Shown: positions 21,308 through 31,628 of the stretch, piece after piece
Numbering within the stretch: the first letter of the stretch is position 1
How the letters are laid out: each line of letters opens with the position of its first letter
NCBI RefSeq assembly: GCF_036785885.1
Contig: NC_092326.1
Location: forward strand, 43,911,072 to 43,975,071
Length of the DNA: 64,000 nucleotides
Source: Coffea arabica
Lineage: Eukaryota; Streptophyta; Magnoliopsida; Gentianales; Rubiaceae
Direction of reading: 5' to 3'
Translations under genes and position numbers: made by a program
The notes under the pieces: generated by a model
Databases searched by the model: none
Told to the model about the DNA's origin: nothing
What the model saw: the letters and a program-made list of their open reading frames with translations, nothing else

Positions 21308-21865
21308 GAGAAAAATGCAGTTTTTGTAACAACATTTTTGCACAAGAACGGTTTTAGTCCCTAAATTTTGGACAAAAATAAATCTGGTACCCAATCTCTC
21401 AACTATTGGGTACATTTAATACCCTTGACAAATTTTTTCAAATTGCTACCAAAAAAAGTTACGTGATAGTCACATGTTCGACAACTATTATATCAAAAAA
21501 AATGCCAAAAAAAAAAGTAAAATATCCTTTTGATAAAATTATTAGTCCTTAAATGATTTAATTAGTGTCAGAAGGATAGGATATTTTACCTGACGCTTAG
21601 GATTTAATTAGTGTCAAAAATATATTTGACCTGACACGTAGTATCAAAAGGATATTTTACGTTTTTTGGCATTTTTTATATAATAATTGTCGAACATGTG
21701 ACTATTACGTGACTCTTTCTGACAATAATTTAGGAAAAAACCATCAAAGGCTACTAACTGTGCTCAAAAAATTGAGAGCTTGGGTAACAAATTTGTTTTT
21801 GCTCGAAATTTAGAGATTAAAACTGCTCATATGTCAAAATTTAAATACCAAAACTGCATTTTTCT
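21308..21865. mobile_element. Palindromic MITE, cut at its right end by the MULE
   Basis: The left end GAGAAAAATGCAGTTTTTG is mirrored at the right by CAAAACTGCATTTTTCT, with further inverted similarity inwards (ACATGTGACTAT against ATAGTCACATGT). The MULE begins at 21866, directly after CATTTTTCT. The same nine bases recur after the MULE at 31620-31628, followed by the C at 31629 that completes the MITE's GAG terminus. The MITE was therefore the insertion target and is the older element. Confidence 0.65.
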
Positions 21866-22206
21866 GGCTAATTGATCCGAATATTGATGAAAAAAAAACC
21901 CTTCAGACACTTGCGGGTCTGACAGTAGTCCGGTATAAATATATGGGTGCCGGGCTGACATAGCCCGGCACCTGACACCATAAAAATTTTTTTTTTTTTT
22001 TAAAGACACATGGGTGCCGGGCTGTGTCAGCCCGGCACCTGACAAAGTCAGAAAAAGTTGGCTGCCGGGCACTCTCTGCCCGGCAGCCAGTCAAATAGTA
22101 AAAAAAAAATTTCGAAGGGCCTCAATGCAATTCAGACAAAGTGGCTCAACTGAATTGCATAATTAATATTAAAAAAATATTCGGCAGGCTTCAATGCAAT
22201 TCAGAC
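21866..22206. repeat. Left TIR of the MULE, with GC-rich hairpins
   Basis: This inverted repeat matches 31248-31619. It carries three GC-rich hairpins in an otherwise AT-rich setting. Arms lie at 21946-21956/21962-21972 (GGTGCCGGGCT type), 22013-22024/22028-22039 (the same motif) and 22060-22071/22077-22088 (GGCTGCCGGGCA type). The right TIR has an extra copy of the third hairpin, which this side lacks. Confidence 0.9.
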
Positions 22207-22334
22207 CTTTGGCAAGCTGTTAGAGCACTAGAACATTTGGCAAGCTATGAAACGACCTTCAAAGCTATAGCGCTTTATGAAGAAGAAGTGGTTAGATTAG
22301 CCATGCGTTTGGCTTCTACCTGTGTGAAAAGCTG
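22207..22334 (+). pseudogene. Possible captured host-gene fragment (armadillo-like) inside the MULE
   Basis: Immediately inside the left TIR, the plus strand stays open through LWQAVRALEHLASY, then ETTFKAIALYEEEVV, then RLAMRLASTCV. The composition is ordinary and protein-like, unlike the low-complexity frames nearby. From memory it resembles a segment of plant armadillo-repeat-like proteins, but I cannot name the source gene. It ends where TIR-like sequence (AGCTGGCTGCCGG) resumes. No start codon or splice sites belong to it, so it is read as a transduplicated fragment of the Pack-MULE type. Confidence 0.45.
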
Positions 22335-22616
22335 GCTGCCGGCTTGTTTTACAAAAAAAAAATGCGGCAGAAGAATGCATTTCTGACAATATTCTTCAAT
22401 CCACGGAATTAAAGTAGAGGTAAAAATTAAACATCGATTACATTTCTATGGTGAAAAGTTCACTTTCCTGCGCGCAATAAGCAGAAGCAAAGCAGATGCG
22501 GAGATGCATAAAGAAGTATATTGGCAACTCAAAAAATTAAATTATGCATGGATGAAAAATATTATGTATATTAAAATTATAATAAAAGGCCGTTTAAAAA
22601 TTTATTCATTATTTAA

Positions 22617-24421
22617 TGTTCAATACTTATATTTGGTAAATTAAAATAATTAATTAAATATTCTATTATATTATAAGTAACTATATATCGTTAAGTCGAT
22701 TGAATAATATGTAAGCATTTATTTTTTTTGGCATTTGAAGTAGTTGTCTATTAAGTTTTAATTGAAATAAAGATTTTATAATTATTTGAAATTATGCAAT
22801 AAAAAATCACTGTAAGATAAACATAAATGTAAGATGAAAAAATAAATGTAAGATAAACAAATTGTATGATTCAAATATTTGATTTAATATGCAAGAAAGA
22901 CAAGAAGAAATGGCAAGAAGTTTTTTAAAAATTAATGTGAGTTCTTTATATTGGTAATCACCTTTATTTGTTATTTTAATCATAATACCTGATTATAACC
23001 GATTATAATACCTAATACTATTTAATACTATTTACAACTAAAGTTACTATATACGCAAACTACAATTTTCTATTTCACTACATTTTCTTTTATATATGAT
23101 GCACGTTTCATCATTTGTTAAAACAAATTAAATTACAAAACAAATGACAAACAAATGATAAATTTTAACAAATAAATATTTTCTGAAACCTAAACCCCAA
23201 ACCCCAAACCCTAAAAAAGAATGCATTTCTGAAACCTAAACCCTAAAAGCCTGAACCCTAAACCCTGAACCCTGAACCCTAAACCCTAGACTATACACAG
23301 CGTAGAATTTCCTTGATAATGTAACCTTAAAGAAGGAACCCTAAACCCTAAACCCTAAAGAAGAATGCATTTCTAAAACCTAAACCCTAAAACCCTAAAA
23401 ACATCCACGGAATTAATATCTAATGTTCAATACTTATATTTGGTAAATTTAAATAGTTAATTAAATATTCTATTATAATATAAGTAACTATATAGCGTTA
23501 AGTCGATTGAATAATATGTAAGCAGTTATTTTTTTGGGCATTTCAAGTAGTTGTCTATTAAGTTTCACTTGAAATAAAGATTTTATAATTATTTGAGATT
23601 ATGCAATAAAAAATCACTGTAAGATAAACATAAATGTAAGATGAAAAAATAAATGTAAGATAAACAAATTGTATGATTCAAATATTTGATTTAATATGCA
23701 AGAAAGACAAGAAGAAATGGCAAGAAGTTTTTTAAAAATTAATGTGAGTTCTTTATATTGGTAATCACCTTTATTTGTTATTTTAATCATAATACCTGAT
23801 TATAACCGATTATAATACCTAATACTATTTACAACTAAAGTTACTATATACGCAAACTAAAATTTTCTATTTCACTACATTTTCTTTTATATATGATGCA
23901 CGTTTCATCATTTGTTAAAACAAATTAAATTACAAAACAAATGACAAACAAATGATAAATTTTAACAAATAAATATTTTCTGAAACCTAAACCCCAAACC
24001 CCAAACCCTAAAAAAGAATGCATTTCTGAAACCTAAACCCTAAAAGCCTGAACCCTAAACCCTGAACCCTGAACCCTAAACCCTAGACTATACACAGCGT
24101 AGAATTTCCTTGATAATGTAACCTTAAAGAAGGAACCCTAAACCCTAAACCCTAAAGAAGAATGCATTTCTAAAACCTAAACCCTAAAACCCTAAAAACA
24201 TCCACGGAATTAATATCTAATGTTCAATACTTATATTTGGTAAATTTAAATAGTTAATTAAATATTCTATTATAATATAAGTAACTATATAGCGTTAAGT
24301 CGATTGAATAATATGTAAGCAGTTATTTTTTTGGGCATTTCAAGTAGTTGTCTATTAAGTTTCACTTGAAATAAAGATTTTATAATTATTTGAGATTATG
24401 CAATAAAAAATCACTGTAAGA
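22617..24421. repeat. ~800-bp tandem repeat (2.25 copies) with telomere-like arrays
   Basis: Units begin with TGTTCAATACTTATATTTGG at 22617, 23424 and 24221, giving periods of 807 and 797 bp. The 10-bp difference is one extra AATACTATTT near 23024. The third unit stops after about 200 bp. Units 2 and 3 are nearly identical and unit 1 is slightly diverged. Each full unit ends in an array of CCCTAAA-like heptamers (about 23185-23400 and 23981-24200), with variants such as CCCTGAA and CCCCAAA. Confidence 0.92.
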
Positions 24422-24562
24422 AGAAAAAATGCATAACATGACATTGTACAATCGTGAATTTAAAAATAGCGATAAGTATTATAATAATAAAAGATTAAAT
24501 TAACGCTAAATCCTCATATTCAAATATTTGAAATTGTAAAACATGCAATTGAAATGATCATA
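24422..24562 (-). other. 3' flank of the transposase gene
   Basis: AT-rich sequence between the truncated third repeat unit and the transposase stop codon. It presumably contains the transcript end, but no polyadenylation signal can be fixed. Confidence 0.35.
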
Positions 24563-27500
24563 TCAACGGTTGGTACGCCTTTTGCCCTTGCCTTTATCAC
24601 CTGGTGTTGTAGACGGACAACAAAATCTTTTAGGCTTTCGTCTGCAACGATCACGAAGAGCATAGGGTCCTACGTCATCCTCCTCATCCGACTCAACTGT
24701 CGTACTACTATCACCATCGTGTTGAGAACGATACGTGGCAAAATCCCCCGTCTGACCGTATATAGTAGTAGATATCGGCTGGATCGACGCAGATACGGTC
24801 GTAGTCTGTCCAAGACTGTAATAATCGGGAAGGTCTGAAATGGAAGGGACACCACCCGTTTCGTTCAGAAAATTGAATATTGGATGTAGGTTAGCAGTAG
24901 AAGATGAGTCCGCTGCAGTGGCAACGTATCCAAATGGAGGCTCGTTTGACGAGGATGGAAAATGTCCCCCAAATACAGGCAAATATGGAGAGGGCCTGGA
25001 ATATACACCAAAGGGTGGAAACTGTGGCAAAGGCGTGGCATCTAGAGCAATATACTGTGAGTGCGGGAACGATGTCACCTGAGGGGTAAAGGGCGATATA
25101 TTCTGTCCATGTGACACACCGTGGATGTCTGTCATCGGCAAAGACACAGATGTGGTGAATTGATTACTAGTCGGGTTGTAATGCGACTGAGTGCCCCCCT
25201 CGGTCATTTGAATGCCCGTCTCCTCAATGACTTCGTCCTGCAACCCATGCCTATGGCGTCGACTTCTACTAGATGATGGTCCACCTTGTGTAGGGACACG
25301 TCGCACGCGAGGTTGGATAGGAATTTCTGGTGTCACATGAGGATTATGATCGAAAGAATCATAATCACCAACAACCATGCGATCAAAGCGCTGGAGATAT
25401 TGCATTGATCCATATGCTCCATCAACAATTGTTGCAAGACGTGGATGAAATCGACTCCCAGGGTCATCAAGTTCAAGTGCACCATGTGATTGCCGACCAA
25501 TGCGCTGCATAGTATTCATCTGACATATACAAAATAGGAGAAAACATGATCATCCATTGTCCAAAAGTAAATAAATTAAATTTGGGAGATAGTAGTAATT
25601 TACCAAATACTCCAACTGGCCCGAAACTCCATGCAACATTTGTCCAACTTGTGCCTGCTGCTGGATAGGCGGCGTAATGTACAGAACGGTGTGATTGTGA
25701 TACCACTCCAGATAATTATTGGAAGGCCTGAACGTGGTTGTAGGCACGCCAGGTACTTGTGCTTCTCCACGCGCATTCCAGTATCCTATCCAATCCCGAT
25801 GAAAATGAGCCCAATTTCTTCCAGGATAACCGGAAATCTCCAATTGGTGTAAAGCTCGATTAGTGTCAACTTCTTCCGGAATTTCCTGCCTCATCCCAAA
25901 TTGGCGCATGACACGATCTGGACAATGTATTTCGACGATGTGCCAGAAAATTAGAGGGACTCTTGCCCGCCATATGCGCTCCCCTCTTCTGCAATAATCA
26001 GGTAGACTAGCCAGTACGCCATCGCTATACGGCATCCAAATAAACTGCTACCATAACCATAATTTAGATACGATCCAAAATTAAAAACGAGGGACTATAA
26101 AATATAATTTATTGATATAGACGTTATACCTGATCCAACCGCAATAAGGCTAGCTGCTCCCGATAAGATGTAGTGGATCGGCTATAAGGGTCAACCCCTG
26201 TTCGTTGAGCGGCCCATCTACCACCTCTAAGAAAATCCCCAATCCCAGAATATGGGAGTATATCAGGACGAATCACGGGAATCCGCTCCCACGCCCAAAG
26301 CTGTACTAACAAGTACGGACCTCCAGATGTGATTGCAGACACACGTGATGCGTGGCACAATCGTCGGTATAAACACGCCAACGTCGCAGATCCCCAGCTG
26401 TACTGGCTCATGGCATCCAAATCCCGAACATAGTCTAGCCAACTTAAACTGACGACGTTCTGACACGAATCTGCAAATAGCAATCCACCCAATAGAATTA
26501 GAATGTTCATCCGGGCATACTGGCGAACCATCTCATCAGAAGCATCTGCAGGCAGTGGCGTAGCCTGAAAAGAACCACTGAATGTAGCCTGATAAGCGGG
26601 AAACGTATGCTCATGAGCGACAAGCGTCATTGGACTAATACCACACCTATAACACGCTGCCATAGCATGCGAACATGGGAAGCGTAGTTCTCTCCATTTT
26701 CCACATGTACATGTGTGACTTCCAATGTCGACAGTCTGGGCATTACCTCCTTGTCGGCTTTGTCGATAAGCAGTTGTGATACAGTAAATGCCTCTCTGGT
26801 GATCGAACACTTGAACTGCATGTGCCCTCCCTTTTTTTTCATTTTTTACATATAGCTTCCAAAATTTTTTTGGGAGCGCGTATACTAGATTCCATGCCAC
26901 CTTATGATTTTTGACAAACAGGTCAACTGTTTGATTGAATGTGAACCGTATGCATGCAGTAATTGGAAGCAACCGAGCGTCCCTCAACAAATTATTGAAA
27001 CATTCAGCCATATTTGTGGATATGTGCCCCCAACGATAACCCCCATCTTTGCACAGAGCCCATTGCTCGGGTCGAACTGATCCACCCGTTAGCCATGTGT
27101 ACGCCTCCAAATTCAAGGAGTAAATCAAATTCATGTTGTCCTCATACTTGCGCGGCTGATTTGCCACACCAGCAGCGTACATCAGACTTTTAAGTCTACC
27201 AGGCAACATAAAATATCGTCAGAATAAGTTTAATATATGTTTAATATGTTAGGGTGCGGATGCATTATTTTTAAAGGTTCGGAGACAATTTACCTCTCAT
27301 TCTTGAATTTTTGTGTGAAATTACTCCGAATATGAATCAAACAGAATCGGTGCACCCCTAATGGCTCCTGCCACTCTTCAAGTGTACGCATTGCGTTTAT
27401 AATGCCGTGGTGACGATCAGAAATAATGCATATATTTTGCACATCACCACACACGTGAATGCGTAACAGTCTCATGAACCAAGACCAACTCCGATTATTC

Positions 27501-29167
27501 TCCTCATCAACTAGGGCATATGCCAAAGGAAACATTGAATTGTCAGCATCAAACCCTATGGCGACCAAAAGTTTTCCCCGATAAGGCCCTTTTAAAAAGG
27601 TACCATCCACGCATATCACCGGTTTTAGATAGCGGAAAGCTTGGATGGCTGGAGCAAATACCCAAAATATATAATCAAAAATTATTGCAGATGGGGTACT
27701 TAATGGATGATGATCCCACACAACTACCGTCCCTGGATTCGATCGTTGTAACTCCTCAATATATGTCGGCAGTTGCAATATGGATGTCGGCCAGTCCCCA
27801 TATAATATATCAATGGCACGGCGTCTAGCGTACCAAGCCTTCTTATATGACACATCACAATGAAACTCTTGTTTCACCGATGCCTGAATTTCCTTGATTT
27901 TGTACACCGGACCATTCATAATATGGGGAATAATGTGCTCAGCAATTATGTCACTACTCAATCCACGGTGATCGTTACTATAGCAAATACGGACGCAAGT
28001 ATGTGCGTCAGCAAGTGTGACAATCATCCACATGTTGTGCGAGCTCCGTAAGGTTGCACGAAGCTGCCAATTACAAGGGGGGACGGAGTTACGAGCCCGA
28101 CAACGAACATACCAAGTCGTTGGCGTGCTCTCACGAACTCTGAACTCCCTGTTCTCCTTGATGGACCACAACTTCACAGCTCGTTGGACATGCTCCTTTG
28201 ATTCAAAAAGATGGCCCAATTCTAAATCTCTGGTGTGTTCATTCCACATTCTTAACTTTTCCACTCGCCCAGCATCAAGGGGGTCAAAATTCAATGCAGC
28301 GTCAACACCAGCTTCATAACGCAGTTGTGGACCCTCACTATTTATCCAGGGGGCACCGTGATCCATGTCATCATGGGCCATAGATGTGCCCTCTAGATGC
28401 CCTGCTTGACTATCAGTACCATGTTCGTGGTTCTCATCATCCGAACCACTAAGATTGGGCTCCGGTTCGGAGTCCATGTCAACATCTACAAACTGATCGT
28501 CAGTAGATGGCTGTGCATCAAACATTGGTGCCGATTCAATATCCGCACCTCGAGAATGAATGCTTGAGGTGTGAATTATCGGTCGAGCACCTGTACATGG
28601 AGGCTCATTATTCGTCTGCCGACCAGTACCCCTTCTTCGCCCTCTATGCCTTTGTTCGACATCTGCTCTAGCTAGTTGGGTCATTTGACTCTCAAAATGG
28701 GCGACTGGCTGCAATAAAGATATATGTTCGGAACTGCTACCGCCTCGCTCAAGATTACCACTTATAATTTGTAAACCATCGGTACCATGTTCTTCTAAAC
28801 CCAATAGCTTCTCGACCTCCACATATATTTCGGTTGCAAGCCTACTACCAGATTGTAAGTAGTACAGACCAGCAACTCCATTGTCATTTACCAAAGGCAT
28901 TGCACCAAACTTGCCATTTTGGAGACAACTCCGATATATCAAACTAATGTTATAGCTGTTCCGATCTAAACCCATAATAGTGTATATTCTATCTACCAAT
29001 TCATCATAACCCACCACCTCTGTCAGGAACAACGCATTTTTCGGTATAGGAGGATCATATGAAATTGACCCCTTTTTGTATATAATTTTTCCTCCCCAAT
29101 ATAATTGTATCACCAGGCAATTATCACTTGACATGTTATACCTATTACGGACGAGTGTTGATAACAT
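24563..29167 (-). CDS. MULE transposase fused to a plant mobile domain (MuDR type, PMD-C-like)
   Basis: There are four exons on the minus strand: 29167-27294, 27195-26130, 26044-25604 and 25519-24563. All have GT-AG introns and consistent phases, giving 1445 residues without a stop. The N-terminus has a PB1-like MuDR region (QLYWGGKIIYKKGSISYDPP), then an acidic linker. The DDE core carries D521 (CVDGTFLKG), D584 (IISDRHHG) and a probable E689 (TNMAECFNN). A SWIM zinc finger follows (CTCGKW, then PCSH, residues 787-801). From about residue 837 it becomes a plant mobile domain (LLGGLLFADS, YSWGSATLACLYRRLC, LQLWAWERIP, PLIFWHIVEIHCPDRVMRQFG), then a Ser/Pro-rich tail with a basic end. PMDs are known in MAIN/MAIL host proteins and some transposons. 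M12 (29134) is an alternative start. Confidence 0.92.
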
Positions 29168-31247
29168 TGTAAAATCGCATTGATAAGCTTATTTGAATAA
29201 TCAATTAATTGATCGAATCAAATATGTATAATTTATAACAAATAAATAAATAATTATGAGTCCATAATTGTAACAAATAATAACCAATAATATAACAAAT
29301 AACAACAAAAAAAGCATTATAATTAAATAATTCAACCATTTATAACAAATAAACGTATCATTTAATAAATAACAAAGTAAACCTAATTAACCACCTTAAT
29401 TACTACATTTAGTTATAAAAATTTTACCTTATGCTAAGTCTATCATGCACCTACATTTCATATTTGGTCAATTAAATATGAAATTCTAATCAAATATCTT
29501 ACTAATATTAAAAACCCTATTTTAAAATGATTTTATGCTAATTACGTTATGTTTATGCATTTAATGTATTAAATGTAGCAGTTTTTCCAAATACTTGAAT
29601 TATCCCCACTAAATAGCTATCATAACCAAAACTCAATACATGCCTCGACAAATAAATCTAAATTCATTTAATCGACCTCTTAAAATTAATTAATTACAAA
29701 AGAGTGAGAGGTCCTAATTTAACTAATTAAACCACAAAACTACTTAATCTAATCAGATACTAAATAGCACAAGCTAGTTATCAACTAACTTGCGCAACAA
29801 AGTCAATTGCATTAAACTAATACCCCTAATTTTGAAATAAAGCTAACCTAATTACATTATGTTTATGCATTTTATGTATTAAATGTAGCAATTATTTCAA
29901 ATACTTAAATTATCCCTACTAAATAGCTATCATAATCAAAACTCAATACATGACTCGACAAATACATCTAAATTCATCTAATCGAACCTATTAAATTTAA
30001 TTCATTCAACTAATTAAAAAGCAACTAATTAATCTAATTAAATCACAAAACTAATTAAACTAATCATATACTAAATACCGTGGACTAATTATCAACTAAC
30101 TTGCATAATAAGGTGAATTGCATTGAACCAATAATACTAATTTCGATATTAAGCTATGCTAATGACATCAATTTTATGTACTGCATTTATTATAGATTTA
30201 TATTCATTTAATCAATCACTTTAAATACATTTATTAAACAAATTTAAACAACTAATTAATCTACTTAAACTAATTCAATCACTAAACTAATTCAACTAAG
30301 CGTGTACCGTGCTTCACTAACTAATATTAACAAACATACGTAAACTACATTATATGTTTACAATTGCTTCAACAATAAATTAAATATTTAATTAATAACA
30401 AATTATAATAATATCATAAAATATTTATCAACAATTCACTAACATAAAATGACAAATTATAGCAACTTTTATATAATACAAATCACTAACCTTTTTTGAA
30501 TCAAAAAAATCGATTGCCTTGGGAGCACCGTGAGTAATGAGCCCGGCGACCTTAACAGAAGCACCGCAATTAATCAGCACGGCGATTAACAAAAACACGA
30601 CACCAAGCGTCTGATGCCAATTCTGCATAAGAATAAGGTAATTATTAGAAACACCAACAGGACCACAAGCCAATTCTACTGCCAAACAAAGTAATAATCA
30701 TTTGTTAAATAAGGAGGACTAAGCCAACAAATACTCACGATTTGGACCACAGGACAGTTCTTTGCCCAACTCTTCAAAATATCGATTAGGGCCACAAGAT
30801 AGTAATACGCCCAACTCTGCAAAATGTAAAGTGAGGTGCTCGTGTGAAAGTGTGAGACACTGAGAAATGTAAACTCCGACTGAGGGCTGAGAGAAAAATG
30901 AGAAATGTAAATTTCGTAGGGGAGAAAGTGAGAGGTGCGGACGATGAGGAAGTTCCTCAGTGCTTATATAGAGCATAAGGTAAAATCTAGCCGTCCGTTT
31001 GGACGGCTAGATTACAAAGTTTTTTTTTTAAAAAAAAAATTTTATTACCGGTAGCACACAATTATTGTTTCACGACCTGCTAAAGTCTAATGGAGCATAG
31101 TTCTTTTGTCCAATCGTACGTAAATTTGTTTTGATTCAGCTCTTTTTTGCTTCACGGGAGCTGCAGACAATTTTTTTTTTGTCCACAAGCCTGCAAAAGG
31201 GGCAAATCTGAAGCAAAAAAGTGTGAAAAATTCACGGGAGCTACATT
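29168..31247 (-). promoter_or_regulatory. 5' region of the MULE: AT-rich leader/promoter with small open frames
   Basis: About 2 kb separate the transposase start from the right TIR. Most of it (29170-30420) is strongly AT-rich with repeated phrases such as TTATGTTTATGCATTT...TAAATGTAGCA near 29548 and 29860. On the minus strand, frames at 30976-30719 and 30685-30428 contain a repeated motif: FAELGVLLSCGPN, FEELGKELSCGPN and VELACGPVG. They may be untranslated leader exons or a second small gene of the element. Nothing recognised supports a function. Confidence 0.45.
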
Positions 31248-31619
31248 GTCTGAATTGCATTGAAGCCTGCCGAATATTTTTTTAAACACTTTGACTGGCT
31301 GCCGGGCAGAGAGTGCCCGGCAGCCAGCTTTTGCAGTTGAGCCCTTTGTCTGAATTGCATTGAGGCCCTTCGAAATTTTTTTTTTACTATTTGACTGGCT
31401 GCCGGGCAGAGACTGCCCGGCAGCCAACTTTTTCTGACTTTTTCAGGTGCCGGGCTGACACAGCCCGGCACCCATGTGTCTTTTAAAAAAAAAAAAAAAT
31501 TTTTTGGTGTCAGGTGCCGGGCTGTGTCAGCCCGGCACCCATATATTTATACCGTACTACTGTCAAACCCGCAAGTGTCTGAAGGGTTTTTTTTTCATCA
31601 ATATTCGGATCAATTAGCC
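31248..31619. repeat. Right TIR of the MULE, with GC-rich hairpins
   Basis: Inverse of 21866-22206, with one more hairpin: two of the TGGCTGCCGGGCAGAG type (near 31294-31325 and 31396-31427) and two of the GTGCCGGGCTG type (near 31447-31472 and 31513-31540). The terminal 50 bp are essentially identical to the left end. Confidence 0.9.
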
Positions 31620-31628
31620 CATTTTTCT

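Follow-up and report, generated by a model that had tools for sequence, protein, structure and literature searches.

Plant mobile domains (PMDs) carried by Mutator-like elements (MULEs) are already known. Fusions of PMD-C-type domains with MULE transposases are reported from several grasses and from Amborella, and an anti-silencing role has been speculated for them (Ikeda et al. 2017, PMC5418596). PMDs also occur as an additional open reading frame, often antisense, in several plant MULE groups, namely VANDAL, MuDR-9_OS, MULE-Monocots, MDR, MUDRAVI2, and MUDR (Dupeyron et al. 2019, PMC6446971), and eudicots are described as having mainly genic PMD-C (Nicolau et al. 2020, PMC7156037). The idea that a MULE-borne PMD counters silencing is repeated in one review (PMC8616336); the available portion of another covers VANC and makes no mention of PMD (PMC13317346). 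Here we describe a MULE of Coffea arabica that is 9,754 bp long and occupies positions 21866-31619 of a 64,000-nucleotide stretch of DNA (NCBI RefSeq assembly GCF_036785885.1, contig NC_092326.1, positions 43,911,072 to 43,975,071; referred to as the window, the positions in which are used throughout). An earlier note, made from the sequence alone, took it for a structurally complete element encoding a transposase-PMD fusion and stated that PMD-bearing transposons are known, a point that Ikeda et al. and Dupeyron et al. bear out. We find instead, from comparison of sibling copies, that the window copy very probably belongs to a two-gene MULE family and has undergone an internal deletion, from which its chimeric frame would have arisen.

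The coffee family resembles the elements of Ikeda et al. in that a PMD and a MULE transposase are found in one element. Those elements, however, encode fusion proteins, whereas the arrangement preserved in the coffee family is one of two genes and the fusion in the window appears to be a deletion product. With the groups of Dupeyron et al. the family shares a MULE transposase with SWIM and/or CCHC motifs, terminal inverted repeats (TIRs; 14-421 bp in those groups), a 9-bp target site duplication (TSD), and an extra PMD frame, but in some of those groups the PMD is often antisense, whereas the PMD of the coffee family follows the transposase directly and has the same orientation. Arabidopsis VANDAL elements with VANC likewise have an extra gene beside the MULE transposase, and anti-silencing has been speculated in the literature for MULE-borne PMDs; the coffee family differs in its long TIRs and in having a PMD as its second gene, for which anti-silencing would be a putative role. 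Maize MuDR, in which mudrA and mudrB are convergent, is also a two-gene MULE that retains a second gene beside the transposase, although in the coffee family this second gene is a tandem PMD gene and not mudrB. (None of the listed literature titles on coffee and MULEs, judged as titles only, concerned this MULE family.)

In the window copy four minus-strand exons with GT-AG introns join into a single frame of 1,445 residues, just as the earlier note had read them, and their splice sites recur in most related copies (exceptions include the acceptor of copy C19_42.6). Note that an alternative with three extra bases gives 1,446 residues; the acceptors of related copies favour 1,445. Transposase exon 1 (27294..29167) encodes the DBD_Tnp_Mut and MULE domains with two putative catalytic Asp regions (VDGTF and SDRHH). 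The truncated transposase exon 2 (26565..27195) retains the catalytic Glu region and SWIM, has lost the zinc knuckle and the stop codon, and runs directly into a remnant of PMD exon 1 (26130..26564) that makes up the 3' part of the chimeric exon 2, begins at PMD codon 171, and covers positions 107-235 of the PMD profile. Exon 3 (25604..26044, with the acceptor CAG/TTT by the splice sites of relatives) covers profile positions 238-347, and exon 4 (24563..25519), the C-terminal tail of the PMD gene, ends in a stop and has no Pfam match. The segments VDGTF, SDRHH, and NMAECF, which we take to hold the DDE catalytic residues, are located around residues 517, 581, and 686. The transposase matches are all above cut-off (PF10551, MULE, 3.7e-19; PF03108, DBD_Tnp_Mut, 4.4e-06; SWIM, 6.3e-08), and the copy has the transposase domain, the TIRs, and a TSD within the 8-11 bp expected of a MULE. 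That transposase, SWIM, and PMD share one frame, as claimed previously, thus stands as far as the frame and the Pfam matches go; the PMD (PF10536), however, matches in two pieces above cut-off that extend over positions 107-347 of 347 and is not full-length. Of transposase exon 2 the copy keeps 210 of 281 codons, and of PMD exon 1 it keeps 146 of 316, a total in which one intron codon of the query is counted. The window copy does not have both genes complete, as an autonomous two-gene MULE should.

Comparison with the nearest copy, C3a, locates what is missing. Over 9,742 aligned bases the two copies show 17 substitutions (Kimura two-parameter distance, K2P, 0.00175), and the sole large difference between them is a 958-bp gap within exon 2 of the window copy, which is at odds with the description of this element as structurally complete. 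In C3a the 958-bp piece opens with the last part of transposase exon 2, where a CX2CX4HX4C knuckle is encoded, and continues through a stop, an AT-rich spacer, and an ATG into the N-terminal part of the PMD; the piece is also carried by copies C13, C8, C6, and C4a. (C3a is itself damaged: its transposase exon 1 contains a stop, and its PMD frame is broken.) Through the loss of this piece the window copy is without the zinc knuckle, the stop codon, and the first third of the PMD; the parts that remain happen to lie in one frame. At the junction GTTCTTTTCAGGCTACGCCACTG (26553..26575, minus strand) the edges share TACG with a small mismatch beside it, and a search of the 1.198-Gb genome (with some stretches masked as N) allowing up to two mismatches found the junction sequence once. 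We rejected the converse, an insertion of these 958 bp into the relatives, because both the knuckle and the N-terminus of the PMD are encoded by this segment even in lineages with about 65% PMD identity. The deletion presumably came about when ends were joined at the short sequence common to both edges, or when gap repair accompanying transposition was aborted.

The genome assembly (1.198 Gb, 131 contigs) contains many copies of the family. In the searches by TIR and transposase that the earlier note had proposed, at least 71 matches were found with the TIR (40 of 209 candidates scored) and at least 83 with transposase exon 1 (70 of 2,324 candidates scored). Twenty-seven copies were compared, comprising the window copy, six found by the TIR search, and 20 chosen from the exon 1 matches, mostly the best ones. 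In every one of the 18 copies with a readable boundary, the transposase ends in a stop (TAA or TAG) past SWIM and a separate PMD gene follows 184-266 bp on. This PMD gene starts with ATG in 16 of the 18, with ATA in C21_13.48, and in C16_45.57 with an ATG that is shifted out of frame by one base; it is truncated further on in several of the 18. The other nine copies consist of six that are deleted across the boundary (the window copy, C11, C18_38.48, C3_32.3, C4_33.12, and C5_9.05) and three in which the transposase end or the PMD start was not found in the stretch fetched (C15_6.85, C3_69.03, and C9_48.48, the last with a PMD match several kilobases further on). C8, which also served as the query, is the one copy of the 27 in which all five exons are complete and open; its PMD matches the whole Pfam profile (1-347, 267.5 bits), and its knuckle scores 17.5 bits, under the cut-off of 20.8. 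Fifteen of the 27 copies match a relaxed knuckle pattern; among these, Tyr replaces the last Cys in three, and one contains an internal stop.

These findings bear on whether the window copy could be an intact MULE that makes a transposase-PMD fusion as its normal product. An open frame of 1,445 residues, splice sites common to most relatives, and the MULE-PMD-C fusions reported for grasses and Amborella (PMC5418596) speak for such an element, but 958 bp and profile positions 1-106 are missing, the stop and the separate start are present in 18 of 18 relatives with a readable boundary, and the junction is found in the window copy only; we therefore give this explanation almost no credence. Fusion is, by the same counts, not the conserved architecture of the family, and the idea that it is the design of the element is not supported. 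By their sequence, fuller relatives encode as gene 1 a mudrA-like transposase in two exons (MuDR DNA-binding domain, MULE domain, SWIM, a CCHC knuckle at the C-terminus, and a stop) and as gene 2 a separate PMD gene downstream in the same orientation. The family probably moves by a cut-and-paste mechanism that its own transposase drives and that leaves 9-bp TSDs. In the chimeric protein of the window copy, transposase activity may persist, whereas PMD function is unlikely to.

Several observations weigh against reading the window copy as a deletion derivative of a two-gene family. One concerns the kind of evidence: the earlier note had held that its fusion would fall if the PMD exons belonged to a separate transcript, and the two-gene reading is an argument from gene structure, at which level only (a stop and a spacer of 184-266 bp in 18 of 18 copies) the PMD exons are separate. 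Another is C3_69.03, a distant copy of the transposase (51% identity) that is free of stops and has no PMD in the 6.7 kb fetched; this copy may truly be without a PMD gene, and the pairing of transposase and PMD may not extend across the whole lineage. The 958-bp difference could, moreover, be an assembly artefact in the window contig, as the element is repetitive and has a near-identical twin, but we judge this highly improbable because the TSD, the flanks, and everything else in the element are undisturbed and colinear with the twin and because the junction has the short shared sequence that is often found in real deletions.

The remaining observations concern splicing. If copies with both boundaries used a donor in the knuckle codons and an acceptor just upstream of the PMD ATG, alternative splicing would give a fusion, and the deletion in the window would mimic a natural product. 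A GT in phase 1 is indeed present 62 nt before the stop in 16 of 17 copies (donor-like, A/GTAACT, in the clade of the window copy), a second GT, also in phase 1, is present 14 nt before the stop in 17 of 17, and the last AG lies 8 nt ahead of the ATG in 13 of 17; in the clade of the window copy the fused frame is then open. The GT at -62, however, is part of codons that specify knuckle residues, which may explain its conservation, and the last AG is 4 nt (C18_30.45) or 12 nt (C16_36.47 and C12_22.16) from the ATG in other copies, which puts the fusion out of frame. Note that a last AG 4-12 nt ahead of the PMD start is found in all 17 copies scored; a leader intron of the PMD message is an alternative account of it. 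Judged from these positions, a conserved spliced fusion is unlikely, and so is a deletion that copies one.

A further question is whether the chimeric protein of the window copy is a selected novelty, a new combination of domains. Its frame is without stops and retains the DDE regions and SWIM, and the junction in C11 and the junction shared by C3_32.3 and C4_33.12 are in frame too. On the other hand, C11 is without the transposase core, C3_32.3 and C4_33.12 have frame breaks and stops, and the window copy, with no or few differences from its twin, is too young to show selection. The six boundary-deleted copies represent five deletion events, three of which are in frame (those of the window copy, of C11, and of C3_32.3 with C4_33.12) and two out of frame (C18_38.48 and C5_9.05). 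With a chance of 1/3 for each event, three or more in-frame deletions would arise with p of about 0.21 (calculated by hand), so that selection for in-frame junctions was rejected and the open frame in the window needs no special cause. We consider a selected novelty very improbable, and internal deletion of a two-gene element remains the reading that we prefer.

In the family as a whole, the PMD gene appears to have descended together with the transposase. Protein distances for transposase exon 1 and PMD exon 1 are correlated with r = 0.934 (242 pairs from 23 copies; none of 2,000 label shuffles gave a value as high). In a tree of PMDs (38 rows, 5 dropped for length) the MULE PMDs and a group of other PMDs, both genic and multicopy, are split with support of 1.0; the tree sampled 20 of the genome's PMD loci and was made without named reference sequences. 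Two intronless C10 genes fall on a very long unsupported branch within the MULE group, so the tree is no proof that MULE PMDs form one clade, and the stronger argument for joint descent comes from the correlation of distances. (Identity to the PMD of C8 is 30% in the two intronless C10 genes and 39-48% in three genes with homeologous partners.) No PDB chain matched the PMD at E up to 1. Many further PMD genes occur genome-wide with a match that breaks after profile position 181 (likely at an intron), and some are alike in score and frame length across chromosomes (654 codons on C11, C17, C19, and C20); these genes are perhaps other PMD-bearing transposons.

Estimates of dN/dS suggest that the PMD gene, at least in its first exon, is constrained like the transposase. 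The medians were 0.18 (57 pairs, range 0.10-0.65) and 0.17 (52 pairs, 0.06-0.57) for the two transposase exons, compared with 0.16 for PMD exon 1 (44 pairs, 0.03-0.69) and 0.31 for PMD exons 2-3 (36 pairs, 0.16-0.82), values that are rough because many deep pairs have dS above 1.5 and because the PMD exon 2-3 set includes about 28 intron codons through which the C8 query reads. (The Nei-Gojobori count was applied to 12 chosen copies, several of them broken, with stop codons skipped; pairs were excluded when dS was not above 0.02, when dS was saturated, or when fewer than 80 codons were aligned.)

Whatever the state of its genes, the window copy is a genuine MULE, and the evidence supports a recent insertion. 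The left TIR (21866..22141, plus strand) and the right TIR (31344..31619, minus strand) are each 276 nt long and 97% complementary, and they are flanked by a perfect 9-bp TSD, CATTTTTCT, on the left (21857..21865) and the right (31620..31628). As a bare 9-mer CATTTTTCT is not rare (5 matches in the window against 2.5 expected); we count it as evidence because it is placed exactly at both TIR ends. The two flanks of the element, when joined with one TSD, give a single alignment of 88% to C18:40963633-40964157, on the homeologous chromosome, where a single CATTTTTCT is present with 36 extra bases directly adjoining. This empty site argues that the MULE inserted later than the split of the homeologues or is otherwise absent from C18. 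(The match of these flanks to C18, along with matching pairs of PMD genes on C9/C10 and C5/C6, makes the genome look allotetraploid.) Divergence between the two TIRs was dropped as a measure of age, since most of the differences are common to the twin C3a and so inherited. With between 7e-9 and 1.3e-8 substitutions per site and year, the distance of 0.00175 between the window copy and C3a would place their separation about 0.07-0.13 million years ago.

Thirteen copies, the window copy included, were read with both TIRs. Perfect 9-bp TSDs are present in 12 of these; the exception, C6 (C6:14302791-14312872), is full-length, has no matching TSD, lies at K2P 0.0065 from C8, and may have recombined or lost a flank. 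Six of the 13 are short (1.5-5.4 kb) and consist of TIRs and non-coding bits without transposase exons, like non-autonomous derivatives. Several short non-autonomous relatives retain parts of the non-coding region that adjoins the left TIR of the window copy (22610..24421), a tandem duplication with a period of about 807 bp. The same region holds 18 telomere-like CCCTAAA units, 9 per copy of the duplication. Within each TIR lie two 27-bp palindromic units, GGTGCCGGGC...GCCCGGCACC, 40 nt apart (21946-22039 and 31446-31539), and palindromic GGCTGCCGGGCA units as well. The left flank (21660-21865) is like one arm of an abundant MITE-like inverted-repeat element, which has 47 further matches (76-83%), several of them arranged in pairs that face each other, and the MULE sits at its edge. 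An Rfam scan of the window gave no family at gathering score.

Judged on its sequence, then, the window copy is a recently inserted deletion derivative with a chimeric frame and not an intact fusion element. An open frame, splice sites, a TSD, and TIRs are all checks made on a single copy, and all were passed by a deletion that mimics a domain fusion; where transposase-PMD fusions are predicted from one copy or by gene finders, sibling copies should be compared. The main interest lies in the family, whose tandem PMD gene is apparently under constraint and has a role that is putative only. The separate PMD gene may help the element, possibly by interfering with silencing by the host PMD proteins (MAIN/MAIL1). 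More specifically, it is conceivable, although we regard it as doubtful, that the tandem gene is an old and required second gene directed against host PMD (MAIN/MAIL1-PP7L) silencing, which by analogy would make it a counterpart of VANC built from an unrelated protein. A constrained PMD gene borne by a MULE makes the proposed counter-silencing role testable.

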